Below the pieces are notes generated by a model. It searched no databases. It saw nothing but the letters and a program-made list of their open reading frames with translations, and was not told the DNA's origin. Positions 27,433 through 63,445 of a stretch of DNA of 64,000 nucleotides are shown one piece after another; the first letter of the stretch is position 1, and the number at the start of each line of letters is the position of its first letter. A program made the translations under genes and the position numbers. Source of the DNA: an uncultured Cellvibrionales bacterium (GTDB lineage Bacteria; Pseudomonadota; Gammaproteobacteria; Pseudomonadales; Porticoccaceae); NCBI GenBank assembly GCA_913031645.1, contig CAJWFB010000003.1:19588-83587 (forward strand), in the 5' to 3' direction.

Positions 27433-27603
27433 ATGTTTAATTATCGATTAGTTGCAACACTACTACTGCTATGTATTGTCGTTTTCCCTCTCGCCATTCA
27501 ATGGGCGCTGGAGCCCTCTGGACATTGGTTCAGACTCTTTTTAGTCTGGGGATTATTGGTTTTTTCTACTTTTATTTTACAGCGTGAGCGAACTAAACAA
27601 TGA
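27433..27603 (+). CDS. cbrX: CbrX-like small membrane protein
   Basis: A 56-codon gene directly before cbrA. Two hydrophobic stretches (about residues 6-22 and 34-49) flank a short polar turn with EPSGHW, and a basic tail (QRERTKQ) follows. Its stop TGA overlaps the cbrA ATG in ATGA, so translation is probably coupled. Pseudomonas has a small gene, cbrX, in the same place overlapping cbrA. Position, size and topology agree, though a residue-level match could not be tested. It may assist or assemble with CbrA. No strong ribosome-binding site is visible. Confidence 0.75.
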   Translation: MFNYRLVATLLLLCIVVFPLAIQWALEPSGHWFRLFLVWGLLVFSTFILQRERTKQ

Positions 27604-30470
27604 ACAACCAGATCGTGCTGTTTACCCCTCTGATCATTGTCATCGCCTGCCTCATAACGCGAAAGATCAATGCGAGGACTGATCCGAAAAGCCAAAGTTT
27701 TACTTTAGCGTTGGCTCTTTTCGCGAGCACTGGCGTACTCCTAGCGACGAGCTCTATCGAAATGGCTGGACGCTACGGATACAGCATGATTTTAGCATTG
27801 TTTGGCTTCTCTTTAGTGTTTGTCATCGCACCCCTTGTACTGTTCCCGATTCGTCGACTCAGCAGCATAGTTAGGCTAGCCACGTCAGTAGATTTCCTGA
27901 TATTTCGCTATCGCGGAAAAAGCGTCGCTGTCATCAGCTGTTTGGCAACCACGCTCGCCATTATCCCACTAATTGTTGCCCAGATACTGGCGACAGAATC
28001 TTTAGTCAACAGCATTTTTAATGTCGACATCACACTAATCACCTGCTCACTTTTGTTAGTTGTGATTGGATTAACAGTGAGACAATCCATTAAAACAGGC
28101 GGTGTACAGCAACTTAGATGGATAATGGCTGCAGCAGGCATTCTGCTTATCTTGGCATTGAGTTTATCAACATGGATTGCTGTAAATGCAGAATTTGGCA
28201 GCATTACTAAGATGAATTTGTGGGTAATGGACAGTGGCCAGCAAACAATCATAAAACGTTTTGATTCATCTTATAGTCTATTCATCATTTTCCTGGCTGC
28301 TGGCGTTTCTTTTCCAGCGAACTTCAATATGCTTGTCTCTGAAGCTATTACAGATCGCCAAGCCAGCACAATGTCGTGGGCATACCCTTTGTTGATGCTG
28401 TTGGCCTGCATACCTATTTTCCCCTTGTTGTGGAGCGGCCTATCGCTGCAAACTAGCTCTACCTTTCAGGAATACCTTTTTGCTTTACCCCTAGCGCTAG
28501 AACAGCCAATCATCGCTAGCTTGGGTGCCGCCAGTGTCATTCTGATGGCTCTAGCGCTTTGTTGCAGCCTTATAATGTTTGCTACAAGGATGATTCTTAA
28601 TAGTGTTGTATTGCCTGACAAGAAGCTCTCTGAGCCCAAAAATTTGGCCCAATGGATTGATCGTCGCTACTTTACGATTGCAATCGGACTGATGATGTTT
28701 TGTATTTTGCTAAGTTTTATTGCTAAAAGTCGAAGCATCACCGATCTATATCTCGTTGGGTTTGCTGGATTGGCTCAGCTTATGCCGGGAATGATAGCCG
28801 CCATTTACTTGCCCAAGGCCAGTAGACGAGGATTTATCGCAGGTCTCTGTGGTGGTATGTCTGTATGGATGATCACACTGGCACTACCACTAATATTTGG
28901 TGATTGGTATTGGCAGGTGCCACTTATTGAAAAGCCACTGCTATTCGGTATGCAGGCTTGGGAGGTCTGGGCAATAGAAGCCTTGATACTCAATATCACC
29001 CTGTGCACCTTATTTTCTATTTTTAATAAAATGGATGACCAACAAAAAGTCTTTGCCTCCATATGTATGGCTGACAATGTCTACATACCTGTGCGCGTGG
29101 AGATAAACCAAAAAAATATTGCCGAAATGAACCAGCAACTATTTTTAGTGCTAGGCAAGGAGGCAGATAACGAGATTCAATCAGCACTAACTAGCCTGAG
29201 TTTTGATAGCACCGAAACAAGGCCAGGGGCTCTCCGCCAAATTCGGGATGCTATTAACGCTTCTTTAAATCTGCGTTTTGGCGTCCTTGCGGCAGATAAG
29301 ATAATGAGCCAAGCACTGCCGCTGCCTGCCCCCTCAGGTACACGACAAGAAGATATTTTTCTCCTCGAATCTGTACTAGCCGTGCACGGGGATCAGTTGA
29401 CCGGTATCGCTAGCGAACTCAATAAGCTTCGAGTACACCATAGTGAAATACTCGATAAATTGCCGATTGGTATTATTGCACTTGATCAAAACGGAGAAAT
29501 TCTAAAGTGGAATGCGGCCATCTCAAACTATACCTGTATAGATTCGGTTACCGCCTCAGGAAGTTCCTTACGAGATCTTCCCGACCCCTGGAGAACTGAG
29601 CTAACTGCCTTTATCGTCAGTGGTGATGTTAGCAAAGATAATGTGCGATTGGATCTCAATGGCAGCATTCGCTGGTTCAACCTTCAAAAGTCGACACAAT
29701 TATCGATGGAAGACATCAATGATAATATCATTCTGCTGATAGAAGAAAAAACTCAATCTGTGGTGCTAATCCAAAAAGCAATCGACAATGAGCGGCTTGC
29801 ATCTATGGGACGGCTCGCTGCTGGAGTTGCCCATGAGATAGGCAATCCAGTCACTGGAATAGCCTGTATTGCACAAAATTTAGAACATGAGACACAGCCT
29901 GATCAAATCAGTGCATCTGCTCAGCATATCCTTTCTCAAACAGATCGCATTAATCGAATCGTTGAGTCACTGATTGGTTTTTCACGTGGCGATAAGTCCT
30001 CTGGCCATCATTTTACGAGGGTCAATTTGCACAAAGCGTGTCAAGAAGCCATACAACTTTTAACGCTTGCCGATAATGAATCAACGCTGACCTTTAGCTG
30101 TCATATAGCGACTGAATTAGACATTTTGGGTGACTACCACCAACTTATCCAAGTCTTTCTAAACTTACTCAGCAATAGCCGAGATGCATCTCCACCTCAC
30201 AGCGAAGTCACCATATTGGCAAATTCAAGCGGTGACAAAATAAAGGTAACTATTAATGACTCGGGCACTGGCATTGCGGAAGATCTGCAGTCACAGTTAT
30301 TTGAGCCCTTTGTTACATCCAAAGATCAAGGAAAAGGAACTGGACTAGGCCTATGGGTTGTCTTCAATTTGGCCAAGGGCCTGGGTGCCGATATTGCAAT
30401 TTCAAGCCCTGCACAAAATAGCGACTGCGGAACCACCGTTGCCCTAACCTTTGATAAACTCAAGGAGTAG
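27600..30470 (+). CDS. cbrA: CbrA-like sensor histidine kinase with SLC5-type transporter domain
   Basis: A 956-residue sensor kinase resembling Pseudomonas CbrA, which with CbrB controls carbon/nitrogen balance and catabolite repression. The N-terminal half (about 1-475) is a solute:sodium symporter-like domain with about 13 membrane segments. A linker follows, then a PAS domain (about 611-715, LPIGIIALDQNGEILKWN). The HisKA domain has the phospho-accepting His 745 in AHEIGNPV. The HATPase domain has the N box (LNLLSNS, 854-860), NDSGTG and GKGTGLGL (911-918). All kinase motifs are intact. Gene order gluQ-cbrX-cbrA-cbrB-pcnB matches Pseudomonas. Confidence 0.92.
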   Translation: MNNQIVLFTPLIIVIACLITRKINARTDPKSQSFTLALALFASTGVLLATSSIEMAGRYGYSMILALFGFSLVFVIAPLVLFPIRRLSSIVRLATSVDFLIFRYRGKSVAVISCLATTLAIIPLIVAQILATESLVNSIFNVDITLITCSLLLVVIGLTVRQSIKTGGVQQLRWIMAAAGILLILALSLSTWIAVNAEFGSITKMNLWVMDSGQQTIIKRFDSSYSLFIIFLAAGVSFPANFNMLVSEAITDRQASTMSWAYPLLMLLACIPIFPLLWSGLSLQTSSTFQEYLFALPLALEQPIIASLGAASVILMALALCCSLIMFATRMILNSVVLPDKKLSEPKNLAQWIDRRYFTIAIGLMMFCILLSFIAKSRSITDLYLVGFAGLAQLMPGMIAAIYLPKASRRGFIAGLCGGMSVWMITLALPLIFGDWYWQVPLIEKPLLFGMQAWEVWAIEALILNITLCTLFSIFNKMDDQQKVFASICMADNVYIPVRVEINQKNIAEMNQQLFLVLGKEADNEIQSALTSLSFDSTETRPGALRQIRDAINASLNLRFGVLAADKIMSQALPLPAPSGTRQEDIFLLESVLAVHGDQLTGIASELNKLRVHHSEILDKLPIGIIALDQNGEILKWNAAISNYTCIDSVTASGSSLRDLPDPWRTELTAFIVSGDVSKDNVRLDLNGSIRWFNLQKSTQLSMEDINDNIILLIEEKTQSVVLIQKAIDNERLASMGRLAAGVAHEIGNPVTGIACIAQNLEHETQPDQISASAQHILSQTDRINRIVESLIGFSRGDKSSGHHFTRVNLHKACQEAIQLLTLADNESTLTFSCHIATELDILGDYHQLIQVFLNLLSNSRDASPPHSEVTILANSSGDKIKVTINDSGTGIAEDLQSQLFEPFVTSKDQGKGTGLGLWVVFNLAKGLGADIAISSPAQNSDCGTTVALTFDKLKE

Positions 30471-30564: not shown

Positions 30565-31833
30565 GTGAATTTTATTAGTAAAAGAATTTTAGTCGTAGAG
30601 GATGAAGAGATCATCAGAATATCTCTTGTCAAACTGCTTGAACGACATCACTATAAAACCGAACAAGCGGTGAGTGTTAAAGCGGCACTAAATACCTTCA
30701 ATCTTAATGAATTTGACTTAATCATTAGTGACCTGCGACTTCCAGGAGGCTCTGGCGCAGAACTCATTGGCGCTGTTGGTAATGTTCCCGTTCTAATTAT
30801 GACCAGCTTTGCCAGTTTAAGATCAGCCGTCGATATCATGCGACAAGGAGCCGCCGATTATATTTCTAAACCCTTCGACCATGAAGAATTAATCAGTTCA
30901 GTGAAACGAATCTTAGATCATGAGTCTCATGGAAGCGTACCTATCACCACAACTCAAGCCCCTCTTCTTGGGAATAGCCCTGAAACTCTCAATATTTTAA
31001 ACACTATTCGCAAAGTAGCACCCACAAACGCGCCGGTGCTGATCTCAGGTGAAACAGGCAGCGGCAAGCAGGCTATTGCCAGAGCAATTCATCACGCTAG
31101 CACCCTGAGTGATAGGCTGTTCACAGTTATTAATTGCGTAACTGTGGCAGAAAATGAAATCAAACATTATATTGATCTGGTGACCAAACAAAATGACCCA
31201 GCAAGTGTGTTTTTAAGAGATCTATGTCAACTTCCAGCTAACTTACAAGACAATATATTGAAGTTGATCAAAACCAGTAATGTTCGCGTCGTGGCTTCTA
31301 CAACGAGAGATTTAAATGAACTCTCTAAAATAGGCCTATTTCGTGAGGATCTCTGGCTCGCTATTAATGTTATTCATATAGAGGTACTCCCTCTGAGAGC
31401 GCGGCCAGCTGATATTGTTCAGTTGACCGACTATTTTTTAGGCCAATTTAGCCAACAACTAAACTATGCCGTCACTATTTCAAAGAATGGCATGCATTCC
31501 CTGAGTCAAAATACGTGGCCGGGAAACATCAAGGAACTGAAAAATACGCTTTATCAGGCGGCTATTTTACTCGAGGCAGGAGAACAAATTTCTCCTGCCA
31601 TGTTAGGGCTAGATCATCAATCAGGCAGCCCTACTCAAAAACAGCATCAAACGTCGTTAGCCATGTCTGCTAATGGTGATGACGCTCTATCACTCACTAA
31701 TTACTTTACGCAATTTGTATTAGACAACCAAGACACAATGAGTGAAACCATACTGGCGGAAAAGCTAGGCATTAGCCGTAAAAGCCTTTGGCAACGACGC
31801 AATAAACTTGGAATTAGCCGTAAAACGGATTAA
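30565..31833 (+). CDS. cbrB: CbrB-like response regulator with a degenerate sigma54-activator domain
   Basis: NtrC-type regulator paired with CbrA. The receiver (1-120) is intact: E12/D13, phospho-acceptor D56, T80, K102. The AAA+ domain keeps Walker A (GETGSGK, 162-168). Only 23 residues separate Cys 191 from the Walker B strand, where usual proteins have about twice that, and no GAFTGA is present. The Walker B acidic pair is R218-D219 instead of D-E. FRED (259-262) remains, but the second arginine finger is Ala 266. The Fis-type helix-turn-helix (about 396-418) is intact. Length is 422, against about 478 in Pseudomonas. It therefore probably does not act on sigma54 polymerase. The GTG start has no clear ribosome-binding site. 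Confidence 0.88.
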   Translation: MNFISKRILVVEDEEIIRISLVKLLERHHYKTEQAVSVKAALNTFNLNEFDLIISDLRLPGGSGAELIGAVGNVPVLIMTSFASLRSAVDIMRQGAADYISKPFDHEELISSVKRILDHESHGSVPITTTQAPLLGNSPETLNILNTIRKVAPTNAPVLISGETGSGKQAIARAIHHASTLSDRLFTVINCVTVAENEIKHYIDLVTKQNDPASVFLRDLCQLPANLQDNILKLIKTSNVRVVASTTRDLNELSKIGLFREDLWLAINVIHIEVLPLRARPADIVQLTDYFLGQFSQQLNYAVTISKNGMHSLSQNTWPGNIKELKNTLYQAAILLEAGEQISPAMLGLDHQSGSPTQKQHQTSLAMSANGDDALSLTNYFTQFVLDNQDTMSETILAEKLGISRKSLWQRRNKLGISRKTD

Positions 31834-31889: not shown

Positions 31890-31918
31890 TTGAAGTGGAT
31901 AGATTAATAACTGAGAAT
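31890..31918 (+). promoter_or_regulatory. Candidate sigma70 promoter of the cbrB-pcnB intergenic RNA
   Basis: TTGAAG (31890-31895), a 17-base spacer and GAGAAT (31913-31918). It is a moderate match, placing transcription start near 31925, just before the first hairpin. I looked for a GG-N10-GC sigma54 element over 31801-31945 and found none. Confidence 0.45.
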
Positions 31919-31924
31919 ACGAAT

Positions 31925-32055
31925 TCCACATTGTTTGTGTGGGTAATAATAATAACTAACAATAATAATAACGTTGGATTGCGAAAGGGTTTGGTAGGCT
32001 TAGGCCTCAAAGCTCATTTAAAGGGGCTGTCTTTTGACAGCCCCTTTTGCTTTGC
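31925..32055 (+). ncRNA. CrcZ-like Hfq-binding small RNA candidate
   Basis: A predicted RNA of about 130 nt between cbrB and pcnB, the position of CrcZ in Pseudomonas. Elements in order: a 5' hairpin (CCACA 31926-31930 with TGTGG 31938-31942); an unpaired A-rich tract at 31945-31972 made of four ARN triplets (AAT x3, AAC), one T, then five more (AAC, AAT x3, AAC); a second hairpin (TTTG/AGGC 31990-31999 with GCCT/CAAA 32004-32011); and a 12-bp terminator stem. Such A-R-N runs are the Hfq distal-face signature, and CrcZ sequesters Hfq/Crc through AAnAAnAA motifs. It is much shorter than CrcZ (about 400 nt). The transcript ends are inferred. Confidence 0.7.
32020..32055 (+). terminator. Intrinsic terminator of the CrcZ-like RNA
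   Basis: A perfect 12-bp stem (32020-32031 with 32036-32047) with a TTTT loop, GC-rich in its middle. It is followed by a T-rich tail (TTTTGCTTT). It ends any transcript from cbrB or from the small RNA before pcnB. Confidence 0.92.
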
Positions 32056-32169: not shown

Positions 32170-33525
32170 ATGCTTAAACGCATCCTCAATTATTTTGACG
32201 ATAAAACTCAATCATCAAACCCCTCGGTTATAGATGGCGCCGACTACTCTTTGAGCGCCAACATGATCAGTAGAGACGCTCGGAAAGTTGTCGAAACTCT
32301 TCAAGACGCTGGATTTGATGCCTATGTAGTTGGTGGGGCTGTGCGCGACTTACTCCTCGGCATCAAGCCTAAAGATTTTGATGTAGCCACCAATGCAGAG
32401 CCCTCAGAAGTTAAGTCTTTATTTAGACGATCACGCATCATTGGCCGCAGGTTCCAAATCGTTCATGTACAGTTCAGCCGCGAACTTATCGAAGTAACCA
32501 CCTTTCGCTCCAATGACCAAACAAGCCAAGGTGCGGGAAATAAAAATATAGGCCTGAGACAGCAAAGTAAGACGGGAATGCTAACCCGAGATAATATTTT
32601 TGGATCCGTAAATGAAGATGCCAGCCGCCGAGATCTTACCGTCAATGCGCTTTATTACAATCCTAGCGACAATAGCATCCACGACTTTACTAGTGGACTG
32701 GACGATATCAACAGTCGGACTATTCGGATCATTGGAGACCCGTCTACCCGCTATCGCGAGGATCCTGTGCGACTTCTTCGCATCGTCCGATTTGCGGCTA
32801 AATTAGGGTTTGGTATTGACGCTCGTAGCGCAAAGCCTATGAGTAAGTTGTCTGCCAATCTGGCCCAGGTATCCCCACCCCGATTGTTTGATGAGACTCT
32901 AAAGCTGTTTATGAGCGGAAAAGGTGCGGCAATATACGTCTTACTGCGGGAATATAAATTGTTCGATTATTTAGTTCCTCAAGCTAATCGTCTGGCCAAT
33001 GACGGCAGCAGCAATGCTAACTGTTTATTTGAGCAAGCATTTATAAATACCGACCGTCGTATTAGCTCTAATCAGAGAGTTACCCCTGCCTTTATCTACG
33101 CTGCATTGCTTTGGCCTGCGGTGGCAAAACTGGCGGAGAATTTGAGAGCGAAAGGAAATTCTGCGAGTTATGCGTTGAGCAAAGCATCCAGTGAGATCAT
33201 TTCCAAGCAGATTCATATCACCGCTATTCCAAAACGCTTTACTATTCCGATGCGTGAAATTTGGGATCTGCAATTGCAGTTGCCAAGACGTGGTGGTCAG
33301 CGTGCGAAACGCTTAGCCGAAAACCCTCGCTTTCGGGCCGGGTATGATTTTATTTTACTGCGTGAACAAGCCGGTGAAGAGCTTAATGGCCTAGGGCAAT
33401 GGTGGACAAAGTATCAGGAGGCTAACCCCGAGGAACAGCAACAGATGGCTGATGAGGTGGGTAAAACTATGAAAAAAAGGCGTCGTAGTCGAGGCCCCAG
33501 AAAGAAAAAAACCTCCGAAGCCTAA
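32170..33525 (+). CDS. pcnB: Poly(A) polymerase I
   Basis: Adds 3' poly(A) tails that mark RNAs for decay. The 451-residue protein has the nucleotidyltransferase core with YVVGGAVRDLLLG and KPKDFDVATNA (the D-x-D metal ligands). The RNA-binding domain (RRDLTVNALYY, REDPVRLLRIVRFAAKLGF) follows. The C-terminal tail is very basic (KKRRRSRGPRKKK). The start is ATG 32170; E. coli pcnB uses a non-AUG start, but that is not needed here. The stop overlaps folK's ATG in TAATG. It lies downstream of cbrB and the small RNA as in Pseudomonas. Confidence 0.95.
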   Translation: MLKRILNYFDDKTQSSNPSVIDGADYSLSANMISRDARKVVETLQDAGFDAYVVGGAVRDLLLGIKPKDFDVATNAEPSEVKSLFRRSRIIGRRFQIVHVQFSRELIEVTTFRSNDQTSQGAGNKNIGLRQQSKTGMLTRDNIFGSVNEDASRRDLTVNALYYNPSDNSIHDFTSGLDDINSRTIRIIGDPSTRYREDPVRLLRIVRFAAKLGFGIDARSAKPMSKLSANLAQVSPPRLFDETLKLFMSGKGAAIYVLLREYKLFDYLVPQANRLANDGSSNANCLFEQAFINTDRRISSNQRVTPAFIYAALLWPAVAKLAENLRAKGNSASYALSKASSEIISKQIHITAIPKRFTIPMREIWDLQLQLPRRGGQRAKRLAENPRFRAGYDFILLREQAGEELNGLGQWWTKYQEANPEEQQQMADEVGKTMKKRRRSRGPRKKKTSEA

Positions 33526-52129: not shown

Positions 52130-53017
52130 ATGACCCACGCGATGGAGCCTATGCAAAGTCTTAGTTTACCCTCACCGGCAAAGATTAACCTTTTTTTGCA
52201 TATTATCGGCCAGCGGGCAAACGGGTATCACGACCTGCAAACCATCTTTCAACTGCTCGATTTTGGCGACAATCTCACTTTCCTTTCCAATGGATCTGGA
52301 AAAATACAGTTAAACGGCAATATTGACGGGGTTGATGAAAAAAATAATTTAATTATTCGTGCTGCAAAATTACTTCAAGCGTCAACCGGGTGCGCAAAAG
52401 GCTGCACTATCGATTTGGATAAAAAACTACCGCTGGGTGCTGGCTTAGGCGGCGGAAGTAGTAACGCTGCGACAACGCTTATGGCTCTCAATACCCTTTG
52501 GGACTGCGGCCTAACGACCGATTTATTGGCCGCGCTAGGGGGAAAAATTGGTGCCGACGTGCCTGTTTTTATCCATGGTCAGAGCGCATTCGCTGAAGGA
52601 ATTGGTGAAATATTGACGCCCATCGAACTACCCAAAAAGTGGTTTTTAGTCATAACACCTAATTGCCAAGTGTCGACTGAAGAAATTTTTTCACATCCTC
52701 AATTGACAAGGAACTCTTCACCCATCAAAATACGCGCCCTTCCAGAGGGACAGTGCAGAAATGACTGTCAAACGTTAGTAGCAAGTCTCTACCCAGCGGT
52801 TGAAAAAGCGCTAAAATGGGCAGAAAATTTTGCAACCCCTCTGATGACTGGAACAGGTGCAAGCGTATTTTGTAGCTTTGGCAACCGTGCAGAGGCCGAG
52901 AAGGTCCTTGCCCAGCTGCCAGAGCAATGGAGTGGGTTTGTGGCGAAGAGTGTGAATGACTCCCCGCTACACCAAAAATTGAGTAACTGTTTTACTGGGG
53001 CGTCGCCAAGCGGTTAA
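52130..53017 (+). CDS. ispE: 4-diphosphocytidyl-2-C-methyl-D-erythritol kinase
   Basis: GHMP kinase of the non-mevalonate isoprenoid pathway. The sequence shows [17 protein letters not shown], the ATP-binding [15 protein letters not shown] and the C-terminal MTGTGASVF. The start could be ATG 52130, 52142 or 52151; none has an ideal ribosome-binding site. The last seven codons, including the stop (coding GASPSG), lie inside the tRNA-Gln gene that begins at 52996, so the CDS and tRNA overlap by 22 bases on the same strand. Confidence 0.94.
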
Positions 53018-53070
53018 GGCAACGGGTTTTGATCCCGTCATCGGAGGTTCGATCCCTCCCGCCCCAGCCA
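52996..53070 (+). tRNA. tRNA-Gln (anticodon TTG)
   Basis: A 75-base cloverleaf with encoded CCA. The acceptor arm TGGGGCG pairs with CGCCCCA, the anticodon arm is ACGGG-TTTTGAT-CCCGT with anticodon TTG, and the T arm has GGAGGTTCGATCCCTCC. Its 5' end overlaps the last 22 bases of ispE, and prs begins 33 bases after it. The ispE-tRNA-Gln-prs order is also seen in Pseudomonas. Confidence 0.97.
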
Positions 53071-63368: not shown

Positions 63369-63445
63369 GGCTACGTAGCTCAGCTGGTTAGAGCACAGCA
63401 TTCATAATGCTGGGGTCGGTGGTTCAAGTCCACCCGTAGCTACCA
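63369..63445 (+). tRNA. tRNA-Met (anticodon CAT)
   Basis: A 77-base cloverleaf with encoded CCA. The acceptor arm GGCTACG pairs with CGTAGCT, with one G-T pair, then ACCA; the D arm is GCTCAGCTGGTTAGAGC; the anticodon arm is CAGCA-TTCATAA-TGCTG; the T arm is GGTGGTTCAAGTCCACC. The paired first acceptor base indicates an elongator-type tRNA. Elongator Met is most likely; a lysidine-modified Ile-CAT reading cannot be fully excluded by anticodon alone. Confidence 0.93.

Follow-up and report, generated by a model that had tools for sequence, protein, structure and literature searches.

A predicted RNA gene that is conserved, structured and independently terminated lies between cbrB and pcnB in a bacterium of the SAR92 clade of Porticoccaceae, and we explain it best, with confidence a little above even, as a reduced RNA of the CrcZ lineage that would titrate Hfq in SAR92 through a single site. 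The window, by which we mean the whole 64-kb stretch of DNA analyzed (64,000 nucleotides), comes from this clade, and its nearest relatives are SAR92-clade/HTCC2207-like genomes. On the plus strand, a gene for a cbrA-like sensor kinase (27600-30470), with Pfam matches to HisKA, HATPase_c and PAS, is followed by a gene for a cbrB-like response regulator (30565-31833), by a gap of 336 bases, and by pcnB, encoding poly(A) polymerase (32170-33525; TIGR01942, 499.7 bits against a cut-off of 305.65). The cbrA label derives from position and relatives, none of the NCBIfam equivalogs listed having scored above its cut-off. The cbrB-like protein comprises a receiver (REC) domain, a degenerate AAA+ domain lacking the sigma-54-contacting GAFTGA loop, and a C-terminal HTH; its Pfam matches are PF00072, PF00158 and PF14532, the HTH being assigned from the sequence without a Pfam match.

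The predicted RNA gene occupies positions 31925-32050 (about 126 nt), also on the plus strand, and a sigma-70-like promoter, TTGAAG-N17-GAGAAT, is predicted from the sequence directly upstream (31890-31918). The RNA begins with a 5' hairpin seen in the RNA fold (31925-31943), followed by an A-R-N tract (31945-31972), which is a predicted site for the distal face of Hfq and has homologous tracts in relatives. The tract consists of four triplets (AAT three times, then AAC), an extra T, and five triplets (AAC, AAT three times, AAC). It is followed by a conserved linker, GUUGGAUUGCG (31973-31983), which contains UUGGA and whose form in the family is often GGAUGGAUUGC, by a second hairpin in the fold (31987-32015), and by an intrinsic terminator with a 12-bp stem and a UUUUGCUUU tail (annotated at 32020-32053, and at 32020-32048 in the fold), found in the fold and in the helix test. 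An earlier note on this DNA had described an element of about 130 nt between cbrB and pcnB, with a 5' hairpin, four plus five A-R-N triplets split by a T, a second hairpin and a terminator; its coordinates were right, these parts are seen in the sequence and the fold, and to them we add the sigma-70-like promoter and the conserved linker. A generic promoter scan missed TTGAAG-17-GAGAAT, which carries 8 of 12 consensus bases where the scan demands 9, and generic scanning gave a different, weaker terminator-like stem at 32011-32028 instead of the long terminator.

Conservation and Folding of the Candidate RNA

The segment 31920-32055 folds at -45.2 kcal/mol (z -4.62), and none of 200 shuffles was equally low. 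The ARN4-N-ARN5 arrangement occurs a single time on the two strands of the 64-kb window, while by chance it arose in one of 200 dinucleotide-shuffled versions of the full window and never when the gap by itself was shuffled 5000 times. Comparison of the gap across relatives, which had been proposed as a check on the triplet run and the hairpins, sets these parts apart from diverged flanks: identity, given for the four nearest genomes and for six genomes, respectively, is 95/91% in the A-R-N tract, 77/74% in the 5' hairpin and 95/88% in the second hairpin, as against 67/58% just upstream of the promoter and 71/64% in the spacer between terminator and pcnB. The corresponding values are 91/86% in the promoter, 96/93% in the linker, 97/87% in the terminator, and the opening 60 bases of pcnB reach 86/79%. 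Among near relatives, the linker equals the A-R-N tract in conservation.

RNAalifold, applied to the family-wide alignment A1, found the terminator as the sole helix, and the helix test was therefore moved to 29 SAR92 sequences. This alignment (A2) holds 29 of the 36 delimited SAR92 RNAs, G024, G028, G014, G042, G058, G059 and G040 being omitted, and the structure examined is the fold of the window's own RNA (G000), from which a weak pairing between linker and tract was taken out before the helices were counted. Both-sided changes in the helices amounted to 88 cells, as compared with 30.6 +/- 5.2 in 500 shuffles, a comparison in which kinship alone can push sequences above the shuffles without any structure. 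Paired cells made up 84.7%, against 38.6-59.7% with the partners slid by 1-3 columns, these slid controls being biased toward the unslid version. Both-sided changes occurred in five of the six pairs tested in the 5' hairpin, whose register MAFFT put wrong in some rows, an effect that counts against this hairpin, in four of ten pairs of the second hairpin (74% of cells paired), and in seven of twelve pairs of the terminator. Weaker among the five helix measures was the number of further pair types (43 vs 39.3, matched by 12 of the 500 shuffles). Conservation and covariation, limited as they are to the stretch from promoter to terminator, indicate an element under selection.

Immediately 5' of the tract, 25 of 36 SAR92 sequences have a strong stem, compared with 7.6% of shuffles; elsewhere it was found in none of 13 sequences from the sigma-54 genera (3 of 16 being unplaceable), in 3 of 10 from genus g14, and in 6 of 15 from g5, g6 and g11. 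The 5' hairpin therefore goes with the sigma-70-type forms, and protection of the RNA 5' end is a plausible role for it.

A Short RNA in Porticoccaceae and Longer RNAs in Sister Genera

The region upstream of pcnB was retrieved from 96 of 112 family genomes, and a covariance model, R1, was built from 44 of the family RNAs, which were included among the loci then searched. R1 matches 84 of the 96 loci, with all 90 matches lying within about 715 nt of pcnB; when whole genomes were searched with stricter filters, 82 of the 112 had a match at E 0.01. The SAR92 isolates H921 and H231 (G038 and G018) both carry the RNA, scoring 105 and 108 bits, respectively, with the model. Among the 12 loci without a match, two are truncated where the contig stops (G045 and G032, the latter having a match on another contig), one shows a candidate RNA by eye (G004), and two belong to genomes of 1.2-1.3 Mb from another genus (G075, G082). 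The other seven are SAR92 genomes (G012, G013, G036, G037, G044, G052 and G053, HTCC2207 and MOLA455 among them) with no R1 match at the locus or in the rest of the genome, in which pcnB lies only 116-193 bases beyond the end of the cbrB match; the loci of the HTCC2207 subclade (L196, 5900-6010; L082, L085, L087, L089, L090, L091 and L092) keep both cbrB and pcnB. To judge from these loci, one SAR92 subclade, HTCC2207 included, has lost the RNA by deletion. In the earlier note, loss of the triplet run amid neutral divergence, in relatives retaining cbrB-pcnB, was to count as evidence against a functional RNA; seven SAR92 genomes do keep the genes without the run, but the whole RNA is deleted there and the run has not drifted.

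In Porticoccaceae, 71 of 85 delimited RNAs are 124-165 nt long in the groups measured, and they contain 0-3 A-R-N tracts, with group medians of 4-12.5 triplets and of 9 in SAR92; among the sigma-54 genera, the four-triplet rule yields a zero score for 3 of 16 entries (G096, G004, G094). The short form is therefore common to the genera of the family, so that the compactness remarked on for the window was rightly described, and is a trait of the whole family. Six of seven genomes of genus g11 have a tandem pair of RNA copies upstream of pcnB (L110, L107, L116, L117, L122, L127), resembling a local duplication of the CrcZ/CrcY type. The RNA adjoins pcnB without a cbrB match in the fetched 5 kb in g5, g6, g11 and parts of g10, g14 and g1. 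One g10 locus (G070; L125, 1-3300) has a gluQ-like gene, instead of cbrA, before cbrB, and none of the g10 regions retrieved gave a cbrA match.

Cellvibrio, Gilvimarinus, Microbulbifer and Pseudomonas also have an RNA between cbrB and pcnB; theirs is longer, carries 5-10 A-R-N tracts and is preceded by a sigma-54 site, as in CrcZ. The comparison set comprised 39 named loci (L214-L252), by name outside Porticoccaceae or unplaced. TGGCAY-N5-TGC was found within 700 bases upstream of pcnB in 36 of them (all except L215, L226 and L244), and a cbrB match upstream of pcnB in 38, the exception being L219, where the contig starts. After the sigma-54 site, 5-10 A-R-N tracts were counted in each of the 35 loci measured, and L214 has the site with no A-R-N runs after it. 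The RNA is 244-515 nt long in the 19 of 35 loci with a terminator found; the terminator rule found none in all ten Microbulbifer and six of eight Pseudomonas-like loci, whose length was set at the maximum of 400.

The Rfam model of CrcZ, RF01675, has no match in the window at the gathering threshold, nor in the gap up to E 10. In the sample of the order, it exceeded its cut-off in 19 of 390 genomes and reached E 0.001 in 71 under stricter filters, and none of the 18 Porticoccaceae was among them even at E 0.001. Matches in the gap to mir-2, STnc390, STnc70 and others were rejected, their scores lying below Rfam gathering thresholds; the sole matches in the window at these thresholds are two tRNA genes (52996-53067 and 63369-63442). 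R1 was likewise discarded as a bridge to other families, with weak matches only (5 of 372, E 0.003-0.009). Since no model gives a strong match across families, common descent rests on position and synteny, promoter and composition. Most likely, an ancestor had a CrcZ-type RNA at this position, and the present RNA derives from it by reduction to about one Hfq site. Position, A-R-N content and terminator give good support to the CrcZ-like character claimed earlier, as does the same sigma-54 promoter layout in sister genera, and a covariance-model search, suggested at the same time, succeeded with our own model at 84 of 96 loci and failed with RF01675. Because RF01675 has no match, we regard the predicted RNA as a new CrcZ-like variant outside formal Rfam CrcZ membership.

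CbrB, the Promoter and Candidate Partners of the RNA

A GAFTGA (or GSFTGA) loop is present in 15 of the 58 cbrB genes found across the 96 loci, and is absent from 42, namely from all 37 of g1 (SAR92), two of g8 and three of g14, the gene of G096 being a fragment. In G022, G025, G059 and G111 (loci L059, L060, L083 and L094), the AAA+ domain is gone altogether, and CbrB consists of receiver and HTH. These forms make up a natural series from a sigma-54 activator to a two-domain regulator. The promoter follows the protein: the strict sigma-54 pattern TGGCAY-N4-6-YGC, applied to the sets with and without GAFTGA, was found before the RNA in 15 of 15 GAFTGA genomes of the family, as well as in G096 (shuffles 0.2-0.5%), and in none of the 35 genomes tested that have a cbrB without it; in the window, there is no -24/-12 site before the RNA. 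A looser pattern also matched G016, G021, G043, G064 and G092, of which G016 is not matched by the strict one. A sigma-70-like pattern, TTG-N19-22-TANNNT or NA(T/A/G)AAT, is present before 30 of 36 SAR92 RNAs, against 12% of shuffles, and in none of the 15 GAFTGA genomes; this pattern was devised after the sequences had been seen, with the shuffles and the GAFTGA genomes serving as control.

Loss of sigma-54 itself was considered and ruled out, RpoN being present in 107 of 112 genomes, the window's included. A search for the CbrB operator consensus, TGTTAC-N12-14-GTAACA-N15-19-GTAACA, ahead of the RNA covered 85 genomes, and only G094 beat all 100 shuffles, which is about the chance level. On the CbrB tree, the GAFTGA label changes twice over 35 rows; these are 35 of the 58 available, since a motif filter removed 22, including the window's own, and G052 was excluded by name. 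With the states clustered and only two changes of the label, the association of the loop, promoter and Crc states therefore reflects few events.

A Crc orthologue, with Pseudomonas Crc (PDB 4jg3) as the reference (E 2.6e-69), is present in 38 of 112 family genomes, that is, in 26 of 26 from g3-g7, g9 and g11-g13 and in 12 of 17 from g10. It was found in none of 50 SAR92, 3 g2, 2 g8 and 14 g14 genomes, where matches are weak, if any; in five SAR92 genomes viewed closely, the lone Crc-like gene is exonuclease III. A Crc-like match at E 1e-35 is present in 298 of 390 genomes of the order, and the absence of Crc in SAR92 is for this reason probably a loss. Genera g5, g6 and g11 keep both Crc and the RNA, with no cbrB in the fetched 5 kb and only loose sigma-54 matches (G064, G092); the losses are therefore separable. 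The SAR92 RNA thus appears to have outlived both its known partner, Crc, and its switch, CbrB/sigma-54.

Hfq was found in 107 of 112 family genomes, in all of the 70 most complete and in the SAR92 genus, and was not found in the window's own assembly, which is 88% complete. In the SAR92 genomes G014, G020 and G022, Hfq contains SIFLVNGIKLQG, with Phe at position 25; in PAO1, Y25D is described as a distal-face mutation of Hfq (PMC4063720). CsrA is present in 89 of 112 family genomes, the window's included, and gave no match in six RNA-bearing genomes, some of them incomplete (G021, G022, G024, G026, G051 and G056).

The candidate resembles CrcZ (RF01675; with CrcY and CrcX in Pseudomonas and Azotobacter) in its cbrB-pcnB slot, its A-R-N tracts and its terminator and, through the sister genera, in the CbrB/sigma-54 promoter layout. 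However, whereas CrcZ is about 400 nt long with 5-6 sites, the SAR92 RNA is about 126 nt long with one bipartite site of 4 + 5 triplets, has no RF01675 match, carries a 5' hairpin that the sigma-54 genera lack, and occurs with a sigma-70-like promoter, a CbrB without GAFTGA and no Crc found in the genus. The sRNA99 of Acinetobacter baumannii, with A-rich motifs, is likened to CrcZ by its authors (PMC12802169), and it is on the description of these motifs that our comparison with it is based.

Possible Function and Its Significance

In P. aeruginosa, Hfq is described as blocking A-rich translation starts, and CrcZ, with 407 nt and six A-R-N stretches, as titrating Hfq via the distal face (PMC4063720). 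In our preferred reading, a CbrB/sigma-54 promoter would have driven a longer RNA with 5-10 A-R-N tracts in the ancestor, and the SAR92 RNA would act in the absence of Crc, its transcription starting at a sigma-70-type promoter. Binding of Hfq by the predicted RNA is likely. Its bipartite site, whose nine triplets fit one Hfq hexamer (six pockets), would bind the distal face of a single hexamer, so that less Hfq would be free to repress uptake and catabolic genes at their A-rich translation starts, while the 5' hairpin and the terminator would shield the RNA. Growth-dependent transcription would set its level, or else the remodelled CbrB, working as a receiver-HTH regulator, would do so in place of sigma-54 activation, and the UUGGA-containing linker may give a second contact, with CsrA or with a target mRNA. 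Against this explanation, a single site per RNA makes a weak sponge; moreover, the RNA seems to be lost in seven SAR92 genomes, and the search of the genus turned up no Crc, which belongs to the known mechanism. A more specific version, a Crc-free one-site mini-CrcZ with a sigma-70 promoter under a receiver-HTH CbrB that would have given up first the AAA+ loop and then, in some genomes, the entire domain, and possibly with CsrA as a second client, is put forward tentatively, as we doubt that all of its elements hold.

A bare sponge model leaves the conservation of the linker unexplained, and two other readings give the linker a part. The A-R-N tract might only anchor the RNA to Hfq, while pairing with target mRNAs would fall to the linker GGAUGGAUUGC or to a hairpin loop, as in class II Hfq sRNAs (ChiX, MgrR, CyaR type), which combine an A-R-N element for the distal face of Hfq with a terminator. 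The candidate shares both with them, together with one conserved possible seed segment, and its order of A-R-N, possible seed and terminator is the class II layout; in addition, there is about one Hfq site per RNA, the linker matches the tract in conservation among near relatives, and, of 82 family RNAs scanned, 62 have it in recognisable form (22 with exact GGAUGGAUUGC, 40 with a related form). Yet the remaining 20 have no form of it, it is predicted to be unpaired on average at only 0.50 in SAR92 and 0.44 elsewhere, and the locus, unlike those of class II sRNAs, holds a multi-site RNA elsewhere, the six-tract CrcZ being described as a working sponge (PMC4063720). On balance, we consider base pairing as the main function unlikely.

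A two-protein RNA, in which the A-R-N tract serves Hfq and the UUGGA/GGA linker serves CsrA (RsmA family), would join carbon use to the Csr system. In P. aeruginosa CrcZ, the UUGGA motif is described as needed for RsmN binding, and AGGGA for RsmA (PMC6061880). The presence of UUGGA in the linker and of CsrA in most family genomes, the window's included, fits this idea; but 7 of the 29 aligned SAR92 sequences have UUUGAUUGCG-, UUUGAUUACG- or UUAGAUUGCG-like linkers without GGA, the six RNA-bearing genomes named above, some incomplete, have no CsrA match, and the linker GGA lies outside the hairpin loops of the predicted fold. RsmY/RsmZ and CsrB are sponges titrating a translational regulator. 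The candidate is like them in the proposed titration and in the GGA of its linker, but it has one GGA segment only, outside a hairpin loop, and its main repeat is A-R-N. We find the two-protein reading distinctly improbable. Lower still do we rate the idea that the element is no free RNA and belongs to the cbrB transcript, as its 3' UTR or an attenuator, or that it is a relic without present function, which is very improbable: its place directly 3' of cbrB, its deletion from one SAR92 subclade and a promoter that is a prediction from sequence would suit such an origin, but the RNA is kept at loci where no cbrB was found, it has promoter-like sequence of its own that is conserved, and both-sided pair changes occur in three helices.

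No report of a CrcZ-like RNA in SAR92 or Cellvibrionales, and no paper naming both SAR92 and small RNAs, was found in a literature search whose scope excluded most subscription papers and all preprints. A 2022 review calls the cbrA-cbrB-crcZ organisation unique to Pseudomonadaceae (PMC8871633); the present data, against this claim, put a layout of this type in several further groups. The one-site titrator that we favour would stand at the end of an apparent natural reduction series, which leads from a long RNA with many Hfq sites, through one of about 140 nt with one site and with Crc and sigma-54 retained, to a single-site form of about 130 nt that lacks the sigma-54 site and occurs without Crc. 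The series opens to test the question of how many Hfq sites, and which partners, an Hfq sponge needs. SAR92 is described as an abundant coastal group (PMC10746254), for which the RNA predicted here is a candidate regulatory RNA.
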